Part shown: positions 24,459-58,759 of the stretch, piece after piece
Numbering within the stretch: the first letter of the stretch is position 1
Layout of the letters: each line of letters begins with the position of its first letter
IMG/VR virus record: IMGVR_UViG_3300025012_000028
Location: 150,554 to 214,553 of that record
Strand: one strand, 5' to 3'
DNA from: a virus
DNA: 64,000 nt
Program-made: the position numbers and the translations under genes
The notes under the pieces: generated by a model
Told to the model about the DNA's origin: nothing
Databases searched by the model: none
Seen by the model: the letters and a program-made list of their open reading frames with translations, nothing else

Positions 24459-24466
24459 TATTTATA
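24459..24466 (-). promoter_or_regulatory. T4-type late promoter TATAAATA
   Basis: Exact TATAAATA on the minus strand, next to the terminator of the spike gene and about 31 nt before the gp8-like start. Confidence 0.75.
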
Positions 24467-24469
24467 ACA

Positions 24470-24501
24470 AAAAAACCTCCCATATCAATGGGAGGTTTTT
24501 T
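24470..24501 (-). terminator. Rho-independent terminator
   Basis: 14-bp perfect stem AAAAAACCTCCCAT / ATGGGAGGTTTTTT with a 4-nt loop. It ends the spike transcript coming from the right, immediately before a late promoter. Confidence 0.9.
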
Positions 24502-26873: not shown

Positions 26874-28625
26874 TTAGGTTTCATCTTCTAATATTATTTC
26901 GCCTGATTCTGTTGTCATCACATCACCATCTTCGGTTAAACATACACTTTGGAGAAAGGAGAAATCAGTTTCCAACATTAATTCTTCACCACTTATTTCA
27001 AAAATAAACGATCCATCATTTTCAGTTAACAAATAATTTTCAGACACAAACTCTTTTTGTATTGTATGAACAAAATCATTATTTATCAATGTGACCGAAA
27101 GAATGAACTCACCGGACAATAAAGATAAAGGAACTTCTGAGAAAAAGAGTGGATCGTTAGTCTGAAGTTCTTGAAACACATTTCCCGTATTTTTATTTAT
27201 GATCTTAAATAAATATTGTAATGCTACACCAGTCAGTAAATATTCCATACTGATATAATACATGTTTTCATTTTTGTTCATTATTTGAACTTTAAATTTA
27301 CTAGGTATATCTAGCAAAGATAATAGTTCAATATCATTATAATCATATTCAGTACTATAAATAGAAGGTTTGAAATTGATTCTATTATGTGTTTCAAAAT
27401 CCCCCACAGCAGCACCTTCATAATAATAAGGAACTGCTGTGGTTGTGCTAAGATTCTTATCCAGATATGAAACTGGATATTCTATCAATTGACCGATATT
27501 AGATTTGATGATGCTTTGTTCGTGTATCAGACCCATGATATTAATGTTGGGTAATATGGTAGAGGTATCAATGAAAATATATTCATCTCTCCACGAAACT
27601 GGATGGACAATATGCTTTATGTATTTTGTCCAATAAAACTTTGGTAGGTTGGATGTGATTCGGTATGTGAAATTCTTTTCACCTTCTTCCACTAAATAAA
27701 AATATCCACCCATTGCTTCACAAAACAGCCCGAATAAATTTTGTATGCCTACCAATACACCTTGTATAGAAGAGTGAAGCAGTTTGTGGTTATTAAATAA
27801 AAGTTTTTTTATTTCAATCACCAAATCTTGATTTGATGCTTGTTCTTCTAAAACAGTTATATAATTCTGATATCCATCCAAATATTGAGATATATATAAA
27901 GTCTCAAATTGTTTTGTAATATTTTCTTGGATTAATATTGGAGGTTCTATTTTTCCTTGGTGGTTGAGAGTGGGAGAAAATTGATAATTAAATTTATTTC
28001 CATTGAATATATCAGAAAAATTTTTCCGTTTGAATATGGGATTGATTGGGGCATTTGGAAAATTTATAACGAGTGACGTTTGATTTTCAGTGACAAAATC
28101 AAACGTCACTATATTTCGTTCATCGGACCACCCAAACATAATGTTAAAGTCGATATGAACCGAATAAATGGTTTGGTATTCGAAAATTGTTTTGGAGGAA
28201 ACCCCACCCTTTGGCCCACTCAATAAAGAAATATTTACAACACCACCCTCTATTTCGTTACATTGAAAAAGTAATTGAGTAGAATCTTTAATATTCTGTG
28301 GTATAAGTGTTTCTGTTTTTTTTCTATAAAGTTGAACTGCTAAATTTTCATTTTCACCTTCATATGAATAGAGAGTCTTATTTTTATTATTGGTTAAAAT
28401 AAACTGACTTAAAATGTCAGTTATGTTTGTAAATGTAGATAATATATAATTAACATCACCATATTGAGCTTCAAAGTATTGTGATTCTGCATCGTTCAAA
28501 AAAATGGAGAAAGAAAAATAATCTTCAACCAACAAATCTTTCGACAAGTCATTGTTAATTATTATTGTAAATTCTCTAAGGTTGTTTAAACTATCATATA
28601 AAGTAATCGGTACAGATATTGACAT
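26874..28625 (-). CDS. Predicted baseplate protein, 583 aa (position of gp7)
   Basis: No confident family. It lies between gp6-like and gp8-like genes, where T4 has gp7. Residues 265-350 (KLLFNNHKLLHSSIQGVLVG, then an aromatic run ending HPVSWRDEYIF) are reminiscent of tail protein I-type domains at the baseplate periphery. The C-terminus holds two short similar beta turns (LTEDGDVMTTESGEIILE). The assignment is by position. Confidence 0.5.
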   Translation of the reverse strand: MSISVPITLYDSLNNLREFTIIINNDLSKDLLVEDYFSFSIFLNDAESQYFEAQYGDVNYILSTFTNITDILSQFILTNNKNKTLYSYEGENENLAVQLYRKKTETLIPQNIKDSTQLLFQCNEIEGGVVNISLLSGPKGGVSSKTIFEYQTIYSVHIDFNIMFGWSDERNIVTFDFVTENQTSLVINFPNAPINPIFKRKNFSDIFNGNKFNYQFSPTLNHQGKIEPPILIQENITKQFETLYISQYLDGYQNYITVLEEQASNQDLVIEIKKLLFNNHKLLHSSIQGVLVGIQNLFGLFCEAMGGYFYLVEEGEKNFTYRITSNLPKFYWTKYIKHIVHPVSWRDEYIFIDTSTILPNINIMGLIHEQSIIKSNIGQLIEYPVSYLDKNLSTTTAVPYYYEGAAVGDFETHNRINFKPSIYSTEYDYNDIELLSLLDIPSKFKVQIMNKNENMYYISMEYLLTGVALQYLFKIINKNTGNVFQELQTNDPLFFSEVPLSLLSGEFILSVTLINNDFVHTIQKEFVSENYLLTENDGSFIFEISGEELMLETDFSFLQSVCLTEDGDVMTTESGEIILEDET

Positions 28626-36683: not shown

Positions 36684-36691
36684 TATTTATA
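36684..36691 (-). promoter_or_regulatory. T4-type late promoter TATAAATA
   Basis: Exact TATAAATA on the minus strand immediately after the U-tail of the gp32 terminator and about 25 nt before the gp25 start. Confidence 0.75.
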
Positions 36692-36700
36692 AAAAGAAAA

Positions 36701-36723
36701 GCCCCCAAGATTTTCTTGGGGGC
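36701..36723 (-). terminator. Terminator of gene 32
   Basis: 10-bp GC-rich stem GCCCCCAAGA / TCTTGGGGGC with a 3-nt loop and a TTTTCTTTTT tail on the minus strand. Confidence 0.9.
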
Positions 36724-36752
36724 CAATTGCATTGCAAGGAGGTTCGGATTTG

Positions 36753-38560: not shown

Positions 38561-38655
38561 TTTACTTTCCTTTGTTTCCAAAGTCTAATAATTTTTCTTA
38601 TGCGCGAAAAGAAAACACCATCAACTCTATCTGTTCCAAACCAGAATTCTTTCAT
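38557..38655 (-). CDS. Basic microprotein, 32 aa
   Basis: Read directly: MKEFWFGTDRVDGVFFSRIR, then KIIRLWKQRKVK. ATGA overlaps at both ends link it to its neighbours; the ribosome site is weak, so translation is likely coupled. Amphipathic and basic. Not recognised. Confidence 0.5.
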   Translation of the reverse strand: MKEFWFGTDRVDGVFFSRIRKIIRLWKQRKVK

Positions 38656-38876
38656 TCAAAGAAATCTTTTAGAGAGTTTTCAATTTTATCTCTGGATAAA
38701 AATTTCTTAGCTTTGAATTCTGTTTTTACCTTTTCCAGTAAGATTGGATGAAGAAGTTCAACAACATCTTCGAAGTCGTAGATTCCCTTTTCTTCACATA
38801 GATTAATGATTGCTTCTATGTAGCCACCATCACGTAATGCTCTGGCTTCTATATCCATATTAAAATTATCAATCAT
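38652..38876 (-). CDS. 33: Late transcription coactivator gp33-like, 74 aa
   Basis: ATG (MIDNFNMDIEARAL) has AGGAGAAG upstream. GYIEAIINLCEEKGIYDFED, LHPILLEKVKTEFKAKKFL parallels T4 gp33 (SYLEATTAFLEENSI, IPSGIIEKIQSEAIDENLL). It ends SLKDFFE, like the clamp-binding tails of T4 gp33 (TLDFLL) and polymerase (SLDFLF). Gene order 32, (59), 33, dsbA, rnh in T4 supports it. gp33 bridges RNA polymerase and the gp45 clamp at late promoters. Shorter than T4 gp33 (112 aa). Confidence 0.65.
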   Translation of the reverse strand: MIDNFNMDIEARALRDGGYIEAIINLCEEKGIYDFEDVVELLHPILLEKVKTEFKAKKFLSRDKIENSLKDFFE

Positions 38877-39126
38877 TCTGCTTCTCCTGCTGATCCATAT
38901 ACCAATCGTGTTGCTGTGCAACAGACTCCATTTCATCGAAATAAATTAAAGCACAATGCAAACGACAAATAAGATCTTTGACTTCTTCGGGAGAAAGATC
39001 ATAACCACTGACATATTGGTCATCGTTGGTTTTGATCATCAGACCAATCTTACCAATTTCCCACATGTTTTGAGCATCAATAAAACCTTCTATTTTTTTC
39101 CCTTCTTCATCTCTTTTTATAAACAT
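38869..39126 (-). CDS. Hypothetical protein, 85 aa
   Basis: MFIKRDEEGKKIEGFIDAQN, then DLSPEEVKDLICRLHCALIYFDEME. In the dsbA position but without visible likeness to DsbA. Overlaps both neighbours. Confidence 0.6.
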   Translation of the reverse strand: MFIKRDEEGKKIEGFIDAQNMWEIGKIGLMIKTNDDQYVSGYDLSPEEVKDLICRLHCALIYFDEMESVAQQHDWYMDQQEKQND

Positions 39127-43440: not shown

Positions 43441-43616
43441 TTTGATTGTCTTGCCTCTCTATATTGTTCTATGTATTTTTGATAATCTTCAAGGTTCTTA
43501 TTGTTGAGTTCAAATAACATATGAAAAGCATTACCCACTCTCAAAGGAGGACCAAGAGGAGGTTTTGAAATATCGATAATATTTTCTCCTTTAGGATCAA
43601 ATATTCTCAATTTCAT
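43437..43616 (-). CDS. Small hypothetical protein, 59 aa
   Basis: Read directly: MKLRIFDPKGENIIDISKPP ... NAFHMLFELNNKNLEDYQKY. ATGA overlaps on both sides. A strand-turn start and a C-terminal helix. Not recognised; same operon as queC. Confidence 0.6.
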   Translation of the reverse strand: MKLRIFDPKGENIIDISKPPLGPPLRVGNAFHMLFELNNKNLEDYQKYIEQYREARQSK

Positions 43617-43786
43617 TTCATCTTCCTTACTTCTTTACGTTTAACATCTCGTTTTTCTTTGGTATCATATAGACACGGTTTACCATCTTCCATTACATGG
43701 TGCCACGCTCCATCAACTAATACATCCAAACCATAACTAACTGTCATTGTGGTTGTATTCAACCAATCGTTCGTTTTTGTTCTCAT
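43613..43786 (-). CDS. Small hypothetical protein, 57 aa
   Basis: Read directly: MRTKTNDWLNTTTMTVSYGL ... DGAWHHVMEDGKPCLYDTKE and a lysine-rich end. Strong AAGGAGAAAAT. First gene of the queC operon, after a promoter hairpin. Confidence 0.6.
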   Translation of the reverse strand: MRTKTNDWLNTTTMTVSYGLDVLVDGAWHHVMEDGKPCLYDTKEKRDVKRKEVRKMK

Positions 43787-43804
43787 ATTTTCTCCTTAAA
43801 AATA

Positions 43805-43856
43805 AATAAGAGCTATCAATATGTTTCATGATAGCTCTTATTATTTCGGAAGTCTA
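43805..43856 (-). promoter_or_regulatory. Combined terminator hairpin and early promoter (PeSL-like)
   Basis: 14-bp perfect stem (43805-43818, 43829-43842; loop 10) with a TTATTTATTTTT tail on the minus strand. Promoter TAGACT (43851-43856), 17 nt, TATCAT (43828-43833). It ends the head-protein pair and starts the queC-gp41 operon. Confidence 0.75.
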
Positions 43857-43873
43857 TTAATTTTTATGTGAGT

Positions 43874-44143
43874 TTACGCTAATCTGTCCAGAAGATATTT
43901 AGTTTTAATTTTCCCATATTTTTGGTATTCACCAATCATCTGTTTCATCAAATCCAACTTTTCCTGTTCTTCGGGAGTCATAGAATCGAACTTCACAATT
44001 GCCTTGGAAATCTTTTTGAACACGTCTGATATTACTCCTTCTGTTAGAGTTTTGTCGGATGTGATTCTTTTAATTTCTTTAAGGTAGAAATTTAAATCTT
44101 CAGTTTCAGTTAATAGATGTAAAGTCTTCTGGAAATTGTTCAT
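43874..44143 (-). CDS. Predicted internal head protein, 89 aa
   Basis: MNNFQKTLHLLTETEDLNFY: an amphipathic leader ending LLTE, like a capsid-targeting and prohead-protease site. The mature part is helical and basic/acidic (SDVFKKISKAIVKFDSM, EEQEKLDLMKQMI). Directly follows a sister gene of the same type from one late promoter. Confidence 0.5.
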   Translation of the reverse strand: MNNFQKTLHLLTETEDLNFYLKEIKRITSDKTLTEGVISDVFKKISKAIVKFDSMTPEEQEKLDLMKQMIGEYQKYGKIKTKYLLDRLA

Positions 44144-44485
44144 CTATTTTTCTTCCTTGGGAACTTTACCAACCTCAAAAATCCCCTCGTTGTCAGTTGC
44201 CGTGCTCAACTTGAAAGCTTTGATGATGTCAGCAGCTTTACACCCCTTCAGTGGTTTGCACATAGCTGCAAGCTTCTTGAGGGTACCATAACCGGCAGTT
44301 GGATTTTCTTTAATATAAGCCTTTTGAACATTTCTATATTGGTCGGCAGTAGCCCTTTCCTTGAACTTGAGAATGGTTTTACCATCGGGAAGCACAACCC
44401 CATTCTCTTCTCTTGATTCTACAATCACTTCTGTTTCTTTCGCTTCAGTAAGCGTCTTCAGAATTCGGTTAAAATTGTTTTCCAT
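44144..44485 (-). CDS. Predicted internal head protein, 113 aa
   Basis: MENNFNRILKTLTEAKETE: leader with LTE|A cleavage-like site. The mature part VVLPDGKTILKFKERATADQ then a lysine-rich helix; ends VGKVPKEEK. A late promoter 27 nt upstream supports a virion role. Confidence 0.55.
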   Translation of the reverse strand: MENNFNRILKTLTEAKETEVIVESREENGVVLPDGKTILKFKERATADQYRNVQKAYIKENPTAGYGTLKKLAAMCKPLKGCKAADIIKAFKLSTATDNEGIFEVGKVPKEEK

Positions 44486-44510
44486 TTATGTTTCTCCTTG
44501 AAAGTTTATT

Positions 44511-44690
44511 TTATTTATAATACCAACTAATCTTTACTAATGATCCATCAACTTTATCTACAAAACTACCCAAGTAATCATCTTGTTGAAGCGTTCCAGA
44601 ACGTATGATAGGTTTGATGGAAATTGAATCTGGAGGTCGCACATTGACACAACCAGAAAGAAAAATACATATTAAAATCATTTTAAACAT
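44511..44690 (-). CDS. Small lipoprotein, 59 aa
   Basis: Read directly: MFKMILICIFLSGCVNVRPP, a short signal peptide with lipobox LSGC (Cys14 would be lipidated), then about 45 residues (DSISIKPIIRSGTLQQDDYL...). Probably an outer-membrane-directed lipoprotein; size and topology would suit an o-spanin or an exclusion lipoprotein. The SD GAGGGA is in the 3' arm of a hairpin that also holds a late promoter. Confidence 0.65.
   Translation of the reverse strand: MFKMILICIFLSGCVNVRPPDSISIKPIIRSGTLQQDDYLGSFVDKVDGSLVKISWYYK
44512..44519 (-). promoter_or_regulatory. T4-type late promoter TATAAATA
   Basis: Exact TATAAATA on the minus strand, overlapping the lipoprotein's last codons and 27 nt before the head-protein gene start. 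Confidence 0.75.
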
Positions 44691-44691
44691 A

Positions 44692-44729
44692 GAAATCCCT
44701 CATTACGTTTATTTATAATGAGGGATTTC
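44692..44729 (-). promoter_or_regulatory. Hairpin with embedded late promoter; terminator of uvsX
   Basis: 14-bp perfect inverted repeat (44692-44705, 44716-44729) with a 10-nt loop carrying the late promoter TATAAATA (44710-44717). uvsX read-through RNA would pair the lipoprotein SD (GAGGGAT) with the upstream arm. RNA begun at the late promoter (near 44704) lacks that arm. This is the arrangement known for T4 gene e. Confidence 0.8.
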
Positions 44730-44734
44730 TTTTC

Positions 44735-45940
44735 CTATTCTGTTACTTCTTCTACTTCAAGATCATCGGCAATCCCTTCGGAAGCTGAACAATAATTAAA
44801 CTTGGCTCTCATATAATCGGCCAATCCATGTTTCAAAAACTCTTCCCAAAATGCGGGAGTCATTTTCGCCTTGGTCATAAGATCATCTTTCTTATGAGCT
44901 AAGGAAGGTATTTTTTCAGGATTGATCTTATAGGAACTCTTTTCCTTCAGAAAGATTCCTTCTTCCTCATAACAGAATTCGAACAGACCGGAATAAGGTG
45001 TAAGCCCTTCTTCAAAATCAATATTGAACTTGATTTTAGTTTTCTCTTTTGCGGTCCTACATTTGACATTGGTGCTTGTGATCCTCGCCCCAATTACTTC
45101 ATCTTCTTTATCATTCTTAACCTGTGCTTTTGAGAAATCACTAATGATGGAGGAATTGTAAAGCGAACCTTCACCACCCGATATCACCTTACCACCATAC
45201 CCACCAATCTGAGAATATACATGGTTGATGGGAACGATAGGAACATTTTTGATACCAGCTTTGAGTGTTACTGTCCTGAACAATGCGCGGAGTGCCTGTT
45301 GCTTTGTCATATCCCTTGAATCAGTTCCAGTGGTTTTATCCGCAAGTTCTTTCTTCGAACTGATATTACCAATGGAGTCGATACCAATAAAAACTTTATC
45401 ATCGGGATCGAGTTCATCGATTATGTTGATCAGTTGTGTATTAAGTTCTTCAATGGTAGGAACCGGAATGAACAGCATGTTCTCAGTATCAATTCCACGT
45501 TTCTTCAGATCTTCTTTGGAGTTGTTGGACATCTCAGTTTCAAATAGAACGAAGAAGTATCCAAGGTCGCGCTGTGCGTGTTTAGCAGTCTCTAACATGA
45601 GATAAGTCTTACCGACCGAGTTCAGACCCGCCAATTGCCACACCCTACCAGACGGCATACCCTTATACGGATCGCCACTAATTTGAGCATTGAAAAGATA
45701 ATTACCAGTATTAATCCAGTCACGGATGGGATACTTATCTATTTCGTTGTCGCCCATTAACTGCGCGTACTCAGAACCAGACACATGTTTCAGACGTTCA
45801 CCAAAAGACATTGCTTTCTTTTTAGCTTTTTCTTCGGCAGAATTGTCTTTGAGAATTTTCTTCTCTTCTTTTGAGAGTTTGATGTTGTTTTCTAATTTGA
45901 TTTTAAGTTCTTTCAACACGTCTTCTGAAACAATAGCCAT
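44735..45940 (-). CDS. uvsX: Recombinase UvsX (RecA-like)
   Basis: 401 aa (T4: 391). Strand-exchange ATPase. GRVWQLAGLNSVGKTYLML holds a fuller Walker A (GLNSVGKT) than T4 UvsX; FFVLFETEMSNNSKEDLKKRGI, then VFIGIDSIGNISSKKE with Walker B, and PINHVYSQIGGYGGKVISGG for the L2/DNA-binding region. The C-terminus is acidic. Ends at a hairpin that carries a late promoter. Confidence 0.92.
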   Translation of the reverse strand: MAIVSEDVLKELKIKLENNIKLSKEEKKILKDNSAEEKAKKKAMSFGERLKHVSGSEYAQLMGDNEIDKYPIRDWINTGNYLFNAQISGDPYKGMPSGRVWQLAGLNSVGKTYLMLETAKHAQRDLGYFFVLFETEMSNNSKEDLKKRGIDTENMLFIPVPTIEELNTQLINIIDELDPDDKVFIGIDSIGNISSKKELADKTTGTDSRDMTKQQALRALFRTVTLKAGIKNVPIVPINHVYSQIGGYGGKVISGGEGSLYNSSIISDFSKAQVKNDKEDEVIGARITSTNVKCRTAKEKTKIKFNIDFEEGLTPYSGLFEFCYEEEGIFLKEKSSYKINPEKIPSLAHKKDDLMTKAKMTPAFWEEFLKHGLADYMRAKFNYCSASEGIADDLEVEEVTE

Positions 45941-46162
45941 TCACACTTCTCCTTTAGTATTTCTCGTCAAGTAAAAAACCACACCGGTTGGTGCTGATAA
46001 TGGTTCTATTCCAACCAATTCTTTCGCATTTAAACTAGGATAAACTCTTTTGCCTAATAAAGTGAAGAATCGTTCTACAAATTTCTTATGGTACTTTTTC
46101 CTTATTCGTTTCTTTTTATGAGTGATGAATTTGAAATAATTTATGTGGCGGTTTCTTTTCAT
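45941..46162 (-). CDS. Conserved small phage protein with PTG motif, 73 aa
   Basis: Very basic N-terminus (MKRNRHINYFKFITHKKKRI), then a C-terminal LVGIEPLSAPTGVVFYLTR, which is like the GVQPM..PTGLIF strand motif found in T4-type capsid and other structural proteins. A family of such small proteins occurs in T4-like phages; role unknown. Confidence 0.65.
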   Translation of the reverse strand: MKRNRHINYFKFITHKKKRIRKKYHKKFVERFFTLLGKRVYPSLNAKELVGIEPLSAPTGVVFYLTRNTKGEV

Positions 46163-46362
46163 TCGTCACAAACTCCCTTCCATGCATCATAAAGTTCATA
46201 CCAATCTTCTTTCAACTCATAATATCTAGGCGCAGTTTCCCCACCAAATTTTTCATTCAGGAACTTGACTATATGTTCCCCATAGAACTTTCCCACATTT
46301 TCAACAACCAGTTCATCACTGACAGAATCTCTATCGAAATTATCCTTTCCCACAATTTTCAT
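46159..46362 (-). CDS. Hypothetical protein, 67 aa
   Basis: MKIVGKDNFDRDSVSDELVV, EHIVKFLNEKFGGE, ending DAWKGVCDE. Typical helical small phage protein. 4-nt overlap with its neighbour. Confidence 0.65.
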   Translation of the reverse strand: MKIVGKDNFDRDSVSDELVVENVGKFYGEHIVKFLNEKFGGETAPRYYELKEDWYELYDAWKGVCDE

Positions 46363-46595
46363 TATTTCATTACTCCTTTGGTAAATGGAAAGATGAATTC
46401 TGAATGATATTCATCACTCAACTTTGTGGGTTTCTTGCCTATTTCTATATCAAACACTTGTGGAAGATGTCTAAATGAATCCCACATATCTGTTATAGAT
46501 AACAGAAATTGTTGAACCTCTTCGGTATTATTGAAAATTCTAATGGAGGTTTGATGAATTGTTCCTAAATGTCCAAATGGTGTGAGCATTAACAT
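46362..46595 (-). CDS. Hypothetical protein, 77 aa
   Basis: Two nearby ATGs; the start is uncertain by two codons. Beta-rich with RIFNNTEEVQQFLLSITDMW. 1-nt overlaps on both sides. Not recognised. Confidence 0.6.
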   Translation of the reverse strand: MLMLTPFGHLGTIHQTSIRIFNNTEEVQQFLLSITDMWDSFRHLPQVFDIEIGKKPTKLSDEYHSEFIFPFTKGVMK

Positions 46596-46795
46596 TATTT
46601 GTAATTCTCCAAATTATCTTTCATTTCCTGATGAAATATACTTCCACTCGCAATGTAAGTGGATTTGTTTGTGTCCAGATATTTATCCATCTCTCTGATC
46701 AGTTTTATTGCAGCATGTAGTCTTAATTGTGAATCTGTTGTGGTCATGGGAATGTATGGTGCATAAACATATCCCGGTTCAAAATCTGTTTTCAT
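46595..46795 (-). CDS. Hypothetical protein, 66 aa
   Basis: MKTDFEPGYVYAPYIPMTTT, then a helix RLHAAIKLIREMDKYL. Resembles a small family common in T4-type phages. Role unknown. Confidence 0.6.
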   Translation of the reverse strand: MKTDFEPGYVYAPYIPMTTTDSQLRLHAAIKLIREMDKYLDTNKSTYIASGSIFHQEMKDNLENYK

Positions 46796-47140
46796 TTAAA
46801 GATCCTCTTTTTCAAACATAAAAGTTTTGAATGGAGTTACCACGCTGCACCTTTCCTGTTCCAAGTTCTTCATCAGAATTTTGGCGAGTGTATATGCCTT
46901 TTCGTTGATGTTGTTGGCGGTATCTGGGAACCGAGGATAGTTGATTAGACCCACAATAATTCCCGGTTCATCACCTTCCACATAAACAAAATTGGTAAGA
47001 GTAATTGTAAGACCAAGTTTGACCTTATCACAATAATCCTTACACATTTTAAATGCCATTTCAAATGGCATCACCTTTTCCGAATAACCAGAACGCAGAC
47101 CCATATAAATTTTTACTTCATGTGTATTACATTTTTGCAT
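46796..47140 (-). CDS. Hypothetical protein, 114 aa
   Basis: Mixed alpha/beta: VKIYMGLRSGYSEKVMPFEM, KLGLTITLTNFVYVEGDEPG, KAYTLAKILMKNLEQER. Reminiscent of small phage ferredoxin-like folds; no assignment. Confidence 0.6.
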   Translation of the reverse strand: MQKCNTHEVKIYMGLRSGYSEKVMPFEMAFKMCKDYCDKVKLGLTITLTNFVYVEGDEPGIIVGLINYPRFPDTANNINEKAYTLAKILMKNLEQERCSVVTPFKTFMFEKEDL

Positions 47141-47402
47141 TATCAGTTCCTTTATAGATTAGATTTAGAACTATATGATCAATGTGTTTACTAAGTGTGA
47201 TGATATCTTGAGCAAGTTTTTCTTCTTCGAATATATTACATTCTCTCCACAATACACATTTTTCTTTACCATCATAACCACAAAATCCACACCACTCATT
47301 GGTATCGTTGAGACATTCTTTTGAGGGCGGCATATGCCCAAAACATCGTTTAGGATATATACCGTTGGTAAGATTTTGAATGTCCTCTAAAGAATAGTTC
47401 AT
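47127..47402 (-). CDS. Cysteine-rich hypothetical protein, 91 aa
   Basis: Six cysteines (CFGHMPPSKEC, WCGFCGYDGKEKC, EC) in residues 20-55 make a probable metal site; a C-terminal helix follows. Overlaps the next gene by 14 nt. Confidence 0.6.
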   Translation of the reverse strand: MNYSLEDIQNLTNGIYPKRCFGHMPPSKECLNDTNEWCGFCGYDGKEKCVLWRECNIFEEEKLAQDIITLSKHIDHIVLNLIYKGTDNAKM

Positions 47403-47539
47403 TACATATTCTCCATAAGAGTTTCACTTACACTTTCCTTATAAGATGCCATTACTTCATTCCTACCCCATCCAGTTTTAACTTGAAGCTTTTGAGCAAA
47501 CACTTCCTCAATTCGTTTAAGCAATTCTTTAGTGTTCAT
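47402..47539 (-). CDS. Conserved small phage protein with KTGWGRNE, 45 aa
   Basis: Read directly: MNTKELLKRIEEVFAQKLQV then KTGWGRNEVMASYKESVSE. The KTGWGRNE core with flanking helices is a frequent small protein in T4-type phages. GGAGATA precedes the ATG. Role unknown. Confidence 0.7.
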   Translation of the reverse strand: MNTKELLKRIEEVFAQKLQVKTGWGRNEVMASYKESVSETLMENM

Positions 47540-48969: not shown

Positions 48970-49229
48970 TCCTCTTTGAGTTTAGAAACTTTAATGTTCC
49001 TGATATTGAAAGCACCATCCCCATCGATTCCAAAGGATTTCTTTTGATCGACATCCCCATCAGGATCTACGATAACCTCAAAAGAATGTCCACCATCACT
49101 ATTGCTCTTGATGTGCTCCAACATCCTCTGCAACGAGTTTTCACTATCACTTACCTGAATGGTGATGATGGTATCACCCTCCGATTTATACTCATTCAGA
49201 ATGTTCAAAATGTCTTGATACTTCTTCAT
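48966..49229 (-). CDS. Predicted internal head protein, 87 aa
   Basis: MKKYQDILNILNEYKSEGD: a leader of capsid-targeting type with LNE site. The mature part TIITIQVSDSENSLQRMLEH ... GHSFEVIVDPDGDVDQKKSF is a small alpha/beta domain. Late promoter 26 nt upstream and GGAGGAAG before the ATG. Confidence 0.55.
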   Translation of the reverse strand: MKKYQDILNILNEYKSEGDTIITIQVSDSENSLQRMLEHIKSNSDGGHSFEVIVDPDGDVDQKKSFGIDGDGAFNIRNIKVSKLKEE

Positions 49230-49254
49230 TATCTTCCTCCAACCATTTTAAATC

Positions 49255-49262
49255 TATTTATA
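49255..49262 (-). promoter_or_regulatory. T4-type late promoter TATAAATA
   Basis: Exact TATAAATA on the minus strand, just upstream of the 87-aa head-protein gene. Confidence 0.75.
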
Positions 49263-49265
49263 AAC

Positions 49266-49754
49266 TTAATGGAATGTGCTGTTAGGAAGATCGATACCAC
49301 AGATTTTGCAATATCCTGTTTGTTCATCGATGATTGATCGTGGAACATACCGCTCACAAACGGGGCATTTAACAAACCCTCGATCAGTATGAATTTGTTC
49401 TTCAAATTTGGTATAAGCAGTCGGCCCGAAATAGAACTTTTTGTTCTTTTCATCTATGTAATTGTCTTCATGAATTGAAAGTTGGGATTGGAAATATAAA
49501 GAGAGGATGTGAGTGTACCACGCGACATCTTGGATGTTGTAGTTATTGACAGTAAAACTCAAAAGATACTGAACATCTGTCTGTTCATCTTTGGGGGGAA
49601 CTGCGAGGAGGATAAATCTTTTGGTGAAGTAGCATTGGTACTCTGCACCATTAAACTTGATTGGAACTATCTTGCCCTGTAAATCCTCCTTGCCCCGTTC
49701 AACCACTTCACAAATGTTCATCGCCTCTTTCAAATTCTCTTTGATAAATTCCAC
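49266..49754 (-). CDS. Hypothetical protein with C-terminal zinc ribbon, 162 aa
   Basis: Helical N-terminus, beta-rich middle (VPIKFNGAEYQCYFTKRFIL), then CPVCERYVPRS ... GYCKICGIDLP near residues 132-157, a clear two-CxxC zinc ribbon. Last gene before the ligase-side operon's promoter hairpin. Not recognised. Confidence 0.65.
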   Translation of the reverse strand: MEFIKENLKEAMNICEVVERGKEDLQGKIVPIKFNGAEYQCYFTKRFILLAVPPKDEQTDVQYLLSFTVNNYNIQDVAWYTHILSLYFQSQLSIHEDNYIDEKNKKFYFGPTAYTKFEEQIHTDRGFVKCPVCERYVPRSIIDEQTGYCKICGIDLPNSTFH

Positions 49755-56039: not shown

Positions 56040-56792
56040 TTATTCCCCCAGAACTGATAAACCGTCTTTTTCGCTGTAGAATATTTTCAAAAATTTGGGA
56101 CTAATTGTATTTGGTTGAAATTCTAAATCAAAGTTCTCACCGAGCGTAAAAAAACCCTTGGGTTCTAGAAAATCTCCGAAGTCCTTTTGATAGGGATTAC
56201 CGATATTAATTACATTTTTGTATTGGCTTTGGATATGCATATGACCATTCAAAACGTAGTGGTACTGTGCAAACGAATTTATTTCAAACCCGTCCTTACA
56301 ATCGATCCCTTTAGTGAATCTCATCCCCTTCATATCAGAATGTGTAAGACAAATATCTGCCGGTTTTAAGTCAACATCAGACAAATTTCCTGTGACCCAA
56401 GGAATTGCATAGAATGTATACTTACCAATCTCAAAAATGGTTGGTGTGTCGATATAAGTACAATATTTATACTCATTAAAATTTTCCACAAAGAAGTTAT
56501 GGCTAGTAGTATTCTTGTGGTAACAGGAGTGATTGCCCAACAGATATTTAATATTAACTTGATTCTGTTCAAACCAACCAAACATTCTCTGTTTTAGTTC
56601 TTGAAGAATATAAAGATCGATGTGATCGCGTTTGTCTGTAATATCTCCTAAAGATATTACATATTTGATGTTGTTTTTTAAAATAAATGGAAAGAGTTGT
56701 TTTTCGTAGAACTCCATTTGTGTTTCAAACACCAATTTATTACCATTATTACAACCCATATGTTCGTCTGTTAAAAATAAAATGTCGCCCAT
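56040..56792 (-). CDS. 47: Recombination endonuclease subunit gp47 (SbcD/Mre11-like)
   Basis: 250 aa (T4: 339, so shorter at the C-terminal capping part). Calcineurin-type phosphoesterase motifs: LFLTDEHMG (for DxH), ISLGDITDKRD, LLGNHSCYH, CLTHSD, LNGHMHIQ. Works with gp46. The start at MGDILF was chosen (GGAGAAGG upstream); an upstream in-frame ATG lies inside the inverted repeat of the leader. Confidence 0.88.
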   Translation of the reverse strand: MGDILFLTDEHMGCNNGNKLVFETQMEFYEKQLFPFILKNNIKYVISLGDITDKRDHIDLYILQELKQRMFGWFEQNQVNIKYLLGNHSCYHKNTTSHNFFVENFNEYKYCTYIDTPTIFEIGKYTFYAIPWVTGNLSDVDLKPADICLTHSDMKGMRFTKGIDCKDGFEINSFAQYHYVLNGHMHIQSQYKNVINIGNPYQKDFGDFLEPKGFFTLGENFDLEFQPNTISPKFLKIFYSEKDGLSVLGE

Positions 56793-56797
56793 TCCTT

Positions 56798-56854
56798 CTC
56801 CTTTATATTTATTTATACAAACAAATCTCCTAAACATAAATAAATATAAAGGAG
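56798..56854. repeat. 19-bp perfect inverted repeat between divergent genes, with a late promoter
   Basis: CTCCTTTATATTTATTTAT (56798-56816) is exactly reverse-repeated at 56836-56854. Each arm is the SD-plus-AT leader of the gene on its side (AAAGGAG). TATAAATA on the minus strand (56810-56817) precedes gp47. Possible duplication of a leader during insertion of the plus-strand endonuclease. Confidence 0.8.
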
Positions 56855-56861
56855 ATTAAAA

Positions 56862-57647
56862 ATGATAATTTTGAAACCATATCCTTGTGAAACCTGTGGC
56901 AAAGAACGAAATTTTAAATTTAACACAAAAACTGAAAAAGTTTATATGTATAAATCTACTTGTCAGACATGCACTCTTATCGAACGAAATAAAAAACAAA
57001 ATTTTTCTCCACGAAAACATCCCATTGTAGATTATTTTGAATCTATAGATACCCAAGAGAAAGCATATATTTTTGGGTTTCTGTGGGCAGATGGGTGTAT
57101 GAGAGATGCCACACGTAAAAAGGGTGTAAATATTAAAAGTTTAATGTTAGGTATACACCCAAAAGACAAAGAAATTTTAGATTTCATCGTAGCTCATTTT
57201 GGTGGATCGTATAAAGACATCACCTTTCTTGATAAACGGTCTAATAAACGTTACAACAGATCACAGTGGCATTTAAACTCTAAGGAAGTTTATATGAATT
57301 TCATTGGCCTCAATTTCAGAAAAAATTCATTATCAGTTCCAAATCATCTATTCAATCATTTCCTTCGTGGACTTATAGATGGAGATGGATGTTTTCATGT
57401 TAGAAAAAATAAAACAAATTCGATAGAAATTAAGATTACATCAAATTATGACCAAGATTGGTCGTTCATTACTGATAGAATTGATTTCCCACACACAATT
57501 GCCAGATCTGAATATAATTCAGAAAAACGATCTAACTTACATATTTTGGGTGATAAAGTTCAATTTTTAACCTACCTATATAATGATGCTTCATTTTACT
57601 TAAAACGAAAATATAGATTGGCTGAAAAATTCATTATTCGTCCTTAA
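56862..57647 (+). CDS. LAGLIDADG homing endonuclease
   Basis: 261 aa. N-terminal zinc site (CETCGKERNF ... STCQTC). Two LAGLIDADG helices: YIFGFLWADGCM near residue 65 and FLRGLIDGDGCF near residue 170, each with a central acidic residue. A C-terminal KRKYRLAEKF. Single chain with both motifs. Plus-strand gene inserted between gp47 and a small gene it overlaps by 14 nt. Confidence 0.85.
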   Translation: MIILKPYPCETCGKERNFKFNTKTEKVYMYKSTCQTCTLIERNKKQNFSPRKHPIVDYFESIDTQEKAYIFGFLWADGCMRDATRKKGVNIKSLMLGIHPKDKEILDFIVAHFGGSYKDITFLDKRSNKRYNRSQWHLNSKEVYMNFIGLNFRKNSLSVPNHLFNHFLRGLIDGDGCFHVRKNKTNSIEIKITSNYDQDWSFITDRIDFPHTIARSEYNSEKRSNLHILGDKVQFLTYLYNDASFYLKRKYRLAEKFIIRP

Positions 57648-57834: not shown

Positions 57835-58001
57835 TAATCTTCCTCTTCTCTCAGATGTTCCAGTAGCAATTGTGCCGGAAGACCTCTAGCAAAGGAACCA
57901 TCATCATGAGAAATTTCTAAAGGATGGATGGTACACATCGTCCATCCATGTCTCTCAAGAAGTTCTTCGTCCATTTTTATCAATCGATCAATAAATGTCA
58001 T
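57834..58001 (-). CDS. Small hypothetical protein, 55 aa
   Basis: Read directly: MTFIDRLIKMDEELLERHGW, TMCTIHPLEISHDDGSFARG. Overlaps the sigma stop (ATGA) and the next start (TTAATGG). Cotranscribed with the sigma factor; not recognised. Confidence 0.6.
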   Translation of the reverse strand: MTFIDRLIKMDEELLERHGWTMCTIHPLEISHDDGSFARGLPAQLLLEHLREEED

Positions 58002-58759
58002 TCCAATTCCTTCCTAAGTTTCTTCAGGATGTTCCGCTCTATTTCCATCACCCTTTGTTGAGAAATATTGAAATGATCTGCCAGTTCTCGCATGGTCATT
58101 TTATTCTCAGCAATAATTCGATTATAAACGATATACTGTTCTCTGTCATTTAAAATCGACAATGCTTTATTAATTTTTTCTTTTAAATTATTTTCTTCCT
58201 GATAAGCAATCAACATATCTTCTTGGTTGTCGCGTTCATCGGGAATGATATCTTTAAACGAATCCCCATCACCATCTATAATATCCTCTAATGAATGTTC
58301 ACCCTTCAGTCTTTCGGCCATTTCCTGAACCTTATCTTCTGCGACATCAGTATGTGAATCAGTATTGAAGAACAATTTCTTCTGAAGTTGGGTCGTTCCA
58401 ATCTTAACCAGACTCCATGAATGCATTATATAATCTTGGATGTGCGCTCTGATCCAAAATACCGCATATGAAATGAGACGAACACCTTTATGTGGATTGA
58501 ATTTCCTGACAGCTTTCATCAAACCAATATTGCCCTCTTGGATTAAATCGAGTATATTAAGGCCATATTCTTTATACTCAAGGGCAACCTTAAGGACGAA
58601 CCTCAAATTGGATTCTATGAGTATCCTTGCGGCTTCTAGGTTGTTATTTTCATATAAATCTATCGCAAGTCGTTTTTCCTCTTCATGTGTCAGAAGAGGG
58701 AACTTTCTAATTTCTTGTGTGTAAAGTTCAAAATTATCTATGGTGGTTATGTTGTTCAA
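57998..58759 (-). CDS. RpoH-like sigma factor, in the position of gp55
   Basis: 253 aa from TTG, preceded by AAAGGAGG. Region 1.2-2: NLRFVLKVALEYKEYGLNIL, DLIQEGNIGLMKAVRKFNPHKG, RLISYAVFWIRAHIQDYI, strongly RpoH-like; then TQLQKKLFFN, equivalent to the RpoH box. Region 4 HTH: MTMRELADHFNISQQRVMEIERN then KKLRKELE. T4 gp55 is a small sigma without region 4; this one is complete. Located upstream of gp47, as gp55 is in T4, so it probably directs late transcription. Confidence 0.8.
   Translation of the reverse strand: MNNITTIDNFELYTQEIRKFPLLTHEEEKRLAIDLYENNNLEAARILIESNLRFVLKVALEYKEYGLNILDLIQEGNIGLMKAVRKFNPHKGVRLISYAVFWIRAHIQDYIMHSWSLVKIGTTQLQKKLFFNTDSHTDVAEDKVQEMAERLKGEHSLEDIIDGDGDSFKDIIPDERDNQEDMLIAYQEENNLKEKINKALSILNDREQYIVYNRIIAENKMTMRELADHFNISQQRVMEIERNILKKLRKELE

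Follow-up and report, generated by a model that had tools for sequence, protein, structure and literature searches.

A late promoter motif inside a hairpin that also holds the ribosome-binding site of the next gene raises the question of whether the two together set the time at which that gene is expressed. Such an arrangement was found in an uncultivated T4-like phage (virus record of 214,553 bases, G000), within the 64,000-nt stretch analysed here (the window), which encodes uvsX, a DnaB-type helicase and gp32-, gp25-, gp46- and gp47-type proteins. All features at the locus are on the minus strand. The uvsX gene for a RecA-like recombinase (bp 44735–45940; Pfam RecA, E 2.5e-13; tblastn match to cyanophage uvsX) lies directly upstream of a 59-aa ORF (bp 44511–44690) on the same strand, with no terminator-like tail between them, and the uvsX transcript would run into the hairpin. 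By analogy with T4, uvsX is taken to be an early or middle gene. Part of a 73-aa ORF just upstream of uvsX (bp 45941–46162, minus strand) was noticed to be similar to gp23, the major capsid protein; the E value was 7.1e-5 for Pfam Gp23, a match below that family's cut-off, and 4.7e-4 for the major head protein in PHROGs.

The 59-aa ORF is predicted to encode a small lipoprotein (MFKMILICIFLSGC...) with a mature part of 46 residues. Judged from its sequence it is a plausible gene, because a lipobox (LSGC) follows a hydrophobic stretch and the codon usage favours frame 1 (z 2.8), the other two frames being near or below the shuffled mean. It was the sole ORF in the window to pass a filter for a lipobox plus a Shine-Dalgarno (SD) sequence.

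The hairpin sits between the uvsX stop codon (TAG, bp 44735), which ends 4 nt before arm 1, and the lipoprotein ATG at bp 44690. Its inverted repeat, consisting of arm 1 (AGAAATCCCTCATTA, bp 44730–44716) and arm 2 (TAATGAGGGATTTCT, bp 44705–44691) with 10 nt between them, is perfect over 15 bp; an initial annotation of this DNA had rightly called it perfect and had given its length as 14 bp. RNA folding added a G-U pair, resulting in 16 pairs and an 8-nt loop, with a minimum free energy of -23 kcal/mol versus -7.6 kcal/mol on average for shuffles (sd 2.3; z -6.6), and 0 of 200 shuffles were as low. Arm 2 abuts the ATG and, as the initial annotation had it, contains the SD (GAGGG, bp 44701–44697), 6 nt before the ATG, while arm 1 carries the anti-SD CCCTC. 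A T4-type late promoter octamer, TATAAATA (bp 44717–44710), assigned by its layout relative to T4 e and I-TevII, runs from arm 1 into the loop; six of its bases are indeed in the loop, where the whole octamer had been placed, and the first two form the end of arm 1. Late transcription presumably starts near A44704, the 6th nt after the octamer, a consensus position that we take from T4 late-promoter spacing and that gives a 14-nt leader. Since this predicted +1 falls within arm 2, the late RNA would be without arm 1, in line with the start near bp 44704 proposed earlier.

One may also read the hairpin as mainly a transcription terminator for uvsX, the octamer being incidental or merely the next promoter. 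The hairpin is just behind the uvsX stop codon, this phage often puts a terminator right before a late octamer (e.g., before bp 24428 and bp 36659), and in the relatives of uvsX a hairpin follows uvsX either directly or after one further gene. We nevertheless regard this reading as unlikely. An intrinsic terminator was rejected for lack of a U-rich tract after the stem, the U-tract score being 1.4 for the full stem and 2.1 for the peeled stem versus 3.4–5.3 for the majority of the window's terminator-like hairpins, and the hairpin was not reported by the terminator scan, which limits loops to 8 nt. Moreover, pairing in the stem covers the entire leader as far as the ATG, and the distances between octamer, SD and ATG fit those of a functional late leader.

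The two predicted RNAs differ in their computed folding. In the long RNA the SD had an unpaired probability of 0.00, and opening the SD-AUG region was predicted to cost 22.6 kcal/mol in the read-through RNA versus 6.4 kcal/mol in the late RNA, which supports the earlier proposal that an early read-through RNA would have its SD paired. In 500 shuffles of the bases preceding the octamer, the computed opening gain of 16.1 kcal/mol was not reached once. Some weak structure (-6 kcal/mol) that extends into the coding region persists in the late RNA, although shuffled sequence folds at least as well, and the SD of the late RNA may be largely, though not fully, free. It is likely that the locus is a two-transcript timing switch of the T4 gene e type. 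RNA that begins upstream in the early or middle phase and reads through uvsX would carry both arms, and the 15-bp hairpin would hide the SD, resulting in little lipoprotein. Later, a complex of the late sigma factor and the gp33-type co-activator would act at TATAAATA and start RNA near bp 44704 within the hairpin; this RNA, having a 14-nt leader and no arm 1, would expose the SD and allow the lipoprotein to be translated. The activity of the octamer, the existence of the read-through RNA and repression by the hairpin are what we infer from this layout.

Comparison with known T4 systems is in agreement with the timing switch. T4 gene e likewise has its SD in arm 2, TATAAATA in the structure and a late RNA without arm 1 (PMC3014915), and an upstream stop codon stands right before its hairpin; the likeness to gene e claimed in the initial annotation thus extends to a stop codon a few nt before the hairpin. 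Gene e differs in having two late promoters, a lysozyme product and mapped 5′ ends. At the present locus there is a single octamer, the perfect stem is longer (15 bp), and the predicted product, a small lipoprotein, is unrelated. The closest look-alike is I-TevII (CCTCG-TATAAATA-...-CGAGG, with the SD GAGG in arm 2; PMC2988022), in which the octamer in the loop is at -26 versus -27 at the lipoprotein gene. The hairpins of T4 I-TevI, I-TevII, I-TevIII and segB and of Aeh1 mobE belong to homing endonucleases, several in introns (PMC2988022), whereas the predicted lipoprotein gene stands by itself after uvsX. In T4, soc and gene 49 are also late genes on long early messages in which the start region is paired (PMC3014915), but their structures are weaker or differently placed, the gain for soc being 2.1 kcal/mol versus 16.1 kcal/mol here. 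By the same calculation, the opening costs in the read-through and late RNAs were 15.5 and 2.0 kcal/mol for T4 e, 13.2 and 0.4 kcal/mol for I-TevII, and 9.4 and 7.2 kcal/mol for soc.

The position of the uvsX stop codon only 4 nt before arm 1 also allows for translational coupling, in which ribosomes ending uvsX would open the hairpin and lipoprotein would be made in proportion to UvsX, the late promoter only adding to it. Masking of 12–15 nt past the stop codon reduced the predicted opening cost from 20.3 to 9.2–6.9 kcal/mol. However, T4 e has the same geometry (15.0 to 6.1–4.7 kcal/mol under the same masking) and yet its long RNA is repressed 100-fold (PMC3014915), and the masking by ribosomes would be transient, the hairpin reforming afterwards. 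Coupling is therefore improbable as the main mode of control; still, ribosomes that terminate at the end of uvsX could unfold the hairpin in part, which makes the "strictly late expression" predicted at first too strong a wording.

The proposed switch needs late transcription, and components consistent with it were found in the phage. A gene for a gp33-type late-transcription co-activator (bp 38652–38936, minus strand) matched Pfam Trans_coact PF16805 above the cut-off (E 3.3e-10), and a phage sigma factor with regions 1.2, 2 and 4 (bp 57998–58759, minus strand) may be the late sigma factor, though it is not clearly gp55. The hairpin, octamer, SD and spacing are thus accompanied in the same DNA by genes for a co-activator and a sigma factor. 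A search for the sliding clamp (PF02916), which lacked a positive control, gave no match. In the window, TATAAATA occurred 19 times versus 6.7 expected, a number reached in 0 of 100 shuffles, and in the whole record it occurred 69 times (29 forward and 40 reverse) versus 55 (29 + 26) for the reversed octamer. With such mild enrichment over the whole record, an octamer by itself says little, and what counts is where it lies. An SD and an ORF at suitable spacing accompanied 39 of the 69, and when short stretches around each octamer of the record were folded, the lipoprotein leader had the largest opening gain among these 39. The next late octamer (bp 44512–44519, minus strand), which overlaps the end of the lipoprotein ORF and lies 34 nt before a 113-aa ORF (bp 44485–44144), had no SD hairpin.

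It was also noticed that a junction consisting of a terminator hairpin, a late octamer and a gene, in that order, recurs in this phage, at bp 24459–24501 and bp 36684–36724 of the window and at positions 27655, 106132 and 146948 of the record. At another octamer (G000:48929, plus strand; L284, G000:C1:48660–49200), a terminator-like hairpin follows at once (agggagataag...cttatctccctttcattttt); late RNA would start there within arm 1, and the terminator might be effective on read-through RNA only. A further octamer (G000:35147, plus strand; L279, G000:C1:34490–35420) directly follows a tRNA-Leu-like fragment and is itself followed by a small ORF that may encode a helix-turn-helix; the computed opening gain there was large (13.4 kcal/mol).

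A second instance of the SD hairpin was identified in the window, where an imperfect hairpin (bp 49219–49305, minus strand; -20.4 kcal/mol, z -2.8) precedes an 87-aa ORF at bp 49229. Its octamer (bp 49262–49255) is near the apex and its SD (GGAGG) is in arm 2; the opening costs were 14.4 and 1.0 kcal/mol, a gain reached by 1 of 500 upstream shuffles. At bp 56782–56880, a 21-bp palindromic hairpin (z -4.5) is common to the gp47 gene (start bp 56792, minus strand) and to an HNH endonuclease gene that diverges from it (start bp 56862, plus strand). Within this hairpin lie the SD of each gene, AAAGGAGA, and late octamers, exact or nearly so. Despite this strong palindrome, gp47 was rejected as a third instance, since its gain was only 2.4 kcal/mol and was matched by shuffles.

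No relative of the lipoprotein was detected in IMG/VR, in phage records (tblastn, E 1), in a one-genome-per-species set, in two contigs carrying uvsX relatives, or in Pfam or PHROGs. Similarly, IMG/VR held no relative of the hairpin, phage records held no DNA-level relative of bp 43500–47500, and Rfam had no family for the 64-kb window, the lipoprotein hairpin or eight neck loci. The two nearest relatives of uvsX, L004 (77% identical) and L003 (58% identical), lacked both the lipoprotein gene and the hairpin, which suggests that this instance is young or mobile and means that no covariation is to be had for the hairpin. The lack of relatives in these searches, and of the gene in the nearest uvsX relatives, is what would be expected if the 59-aa ORF were no gene and the hairpin had no regulatory role, but a hairpin with z -6.6, the lipobox, SD and codon usage, and the coincidence of the exact octamer, SD and ATG spacing within one hairpin make chance highly improbable.

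As to the product, the initial annotation had predicted a toxic or lysis-related lipoprotein, for which we obtained no support, as there is no detectable relative, no adjoining spanin partner and no further (C-terminal) membrane segment in the 59-aa ORF. The neighbours are uvsX and the 113-aa ORF, which is without a family match, and an o-spanin (Rz1-like lysis lipoprotein) was rejected, for although a lipobox is present, neither neighbour was recognised as an i-spanin gene. The SD-hairpin device does not imply toxicity either, because in T4 it also controls soc and homing endonucleases (PMC3014915, PMC2988022). The lipoprotein would act late at the cell envelope, and we speculate, with low confidence, that it is a late envelope protein involved in, e.g., receptor masking or exclusion.

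Searching viral contigs for CTCC-TATAAATA-GGAG gave at least 123 distinct matches, at least 22 of which combined a stem of 9 bp or more with an ORF at ribosome-binding-site spacing; among the matches listed, this was 22 of 123 versus 2 of 86 for the reversed-octamer control (Fisher p 3e-4). Among the products encoded behind these matches are neck or head-tail adaptors, homing endonucleases, gp5-type hub lysozyme, tail tube and head protease. Neck genes were then gathered by protein similarity alone, with a query from six hairpin-bearing necks, and the set is therefore not fully independent. Of its 79 neck leaders, 23 had the exact octamer, and the gain was at least 6 kcal/mol in 21 of these 23. 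Among the octamer-bearing neck leaders tested by shuffling, all distinct, 19 of 22 reached 6 kcal/mol versus 170 of 1,320 shuffles (13%), with relatedness uncorrected; the two counts differ because of two leaders at or around 6.0 kcal/mol and one duplicate octamer-bearing leader. In other groups, leaders carried CATAAATA or ATACATA in similar hairpins; for those with CATAAATA the opening gain was scored. The present phage's own neck gene (start about G000:97027) had neither octamer nor hairpin.

Ahead of the neck gene at three further loci (L353, L357 and L365), ATACATA, a different putative promoter, occupies an SD-hairpin loop as judged by eye, which suggests that the layout is kept there with a late-promoter consensus of another kind.

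The device itself is already known, and how common the switch is might be the new part. Neck protein is absent among the known cases in PMC3014915 and PMC2988022, and the device seems to be much more frequent than its handful of textbook examples would suggest. Rather likely, the switch is widespread and repeatedly re-invented in uncultivated T4-like phages instead of being confined to T4 e, soc and homing endonucleases, being kept before the neck gene with differing stems and occurring elsewhere on other genes, e.g., the lipoprotein gene. With the lipoprotein locus, a classic timing device of T4 would reach a distant T4-like phage and a new type of gene, and the survey suggests that the device guards structural genes, notably that for the neck protein. 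As a sequence rule, the presence of an octamer within an SD hairpin can be used to spot genes of late timing among phages that resist culture.
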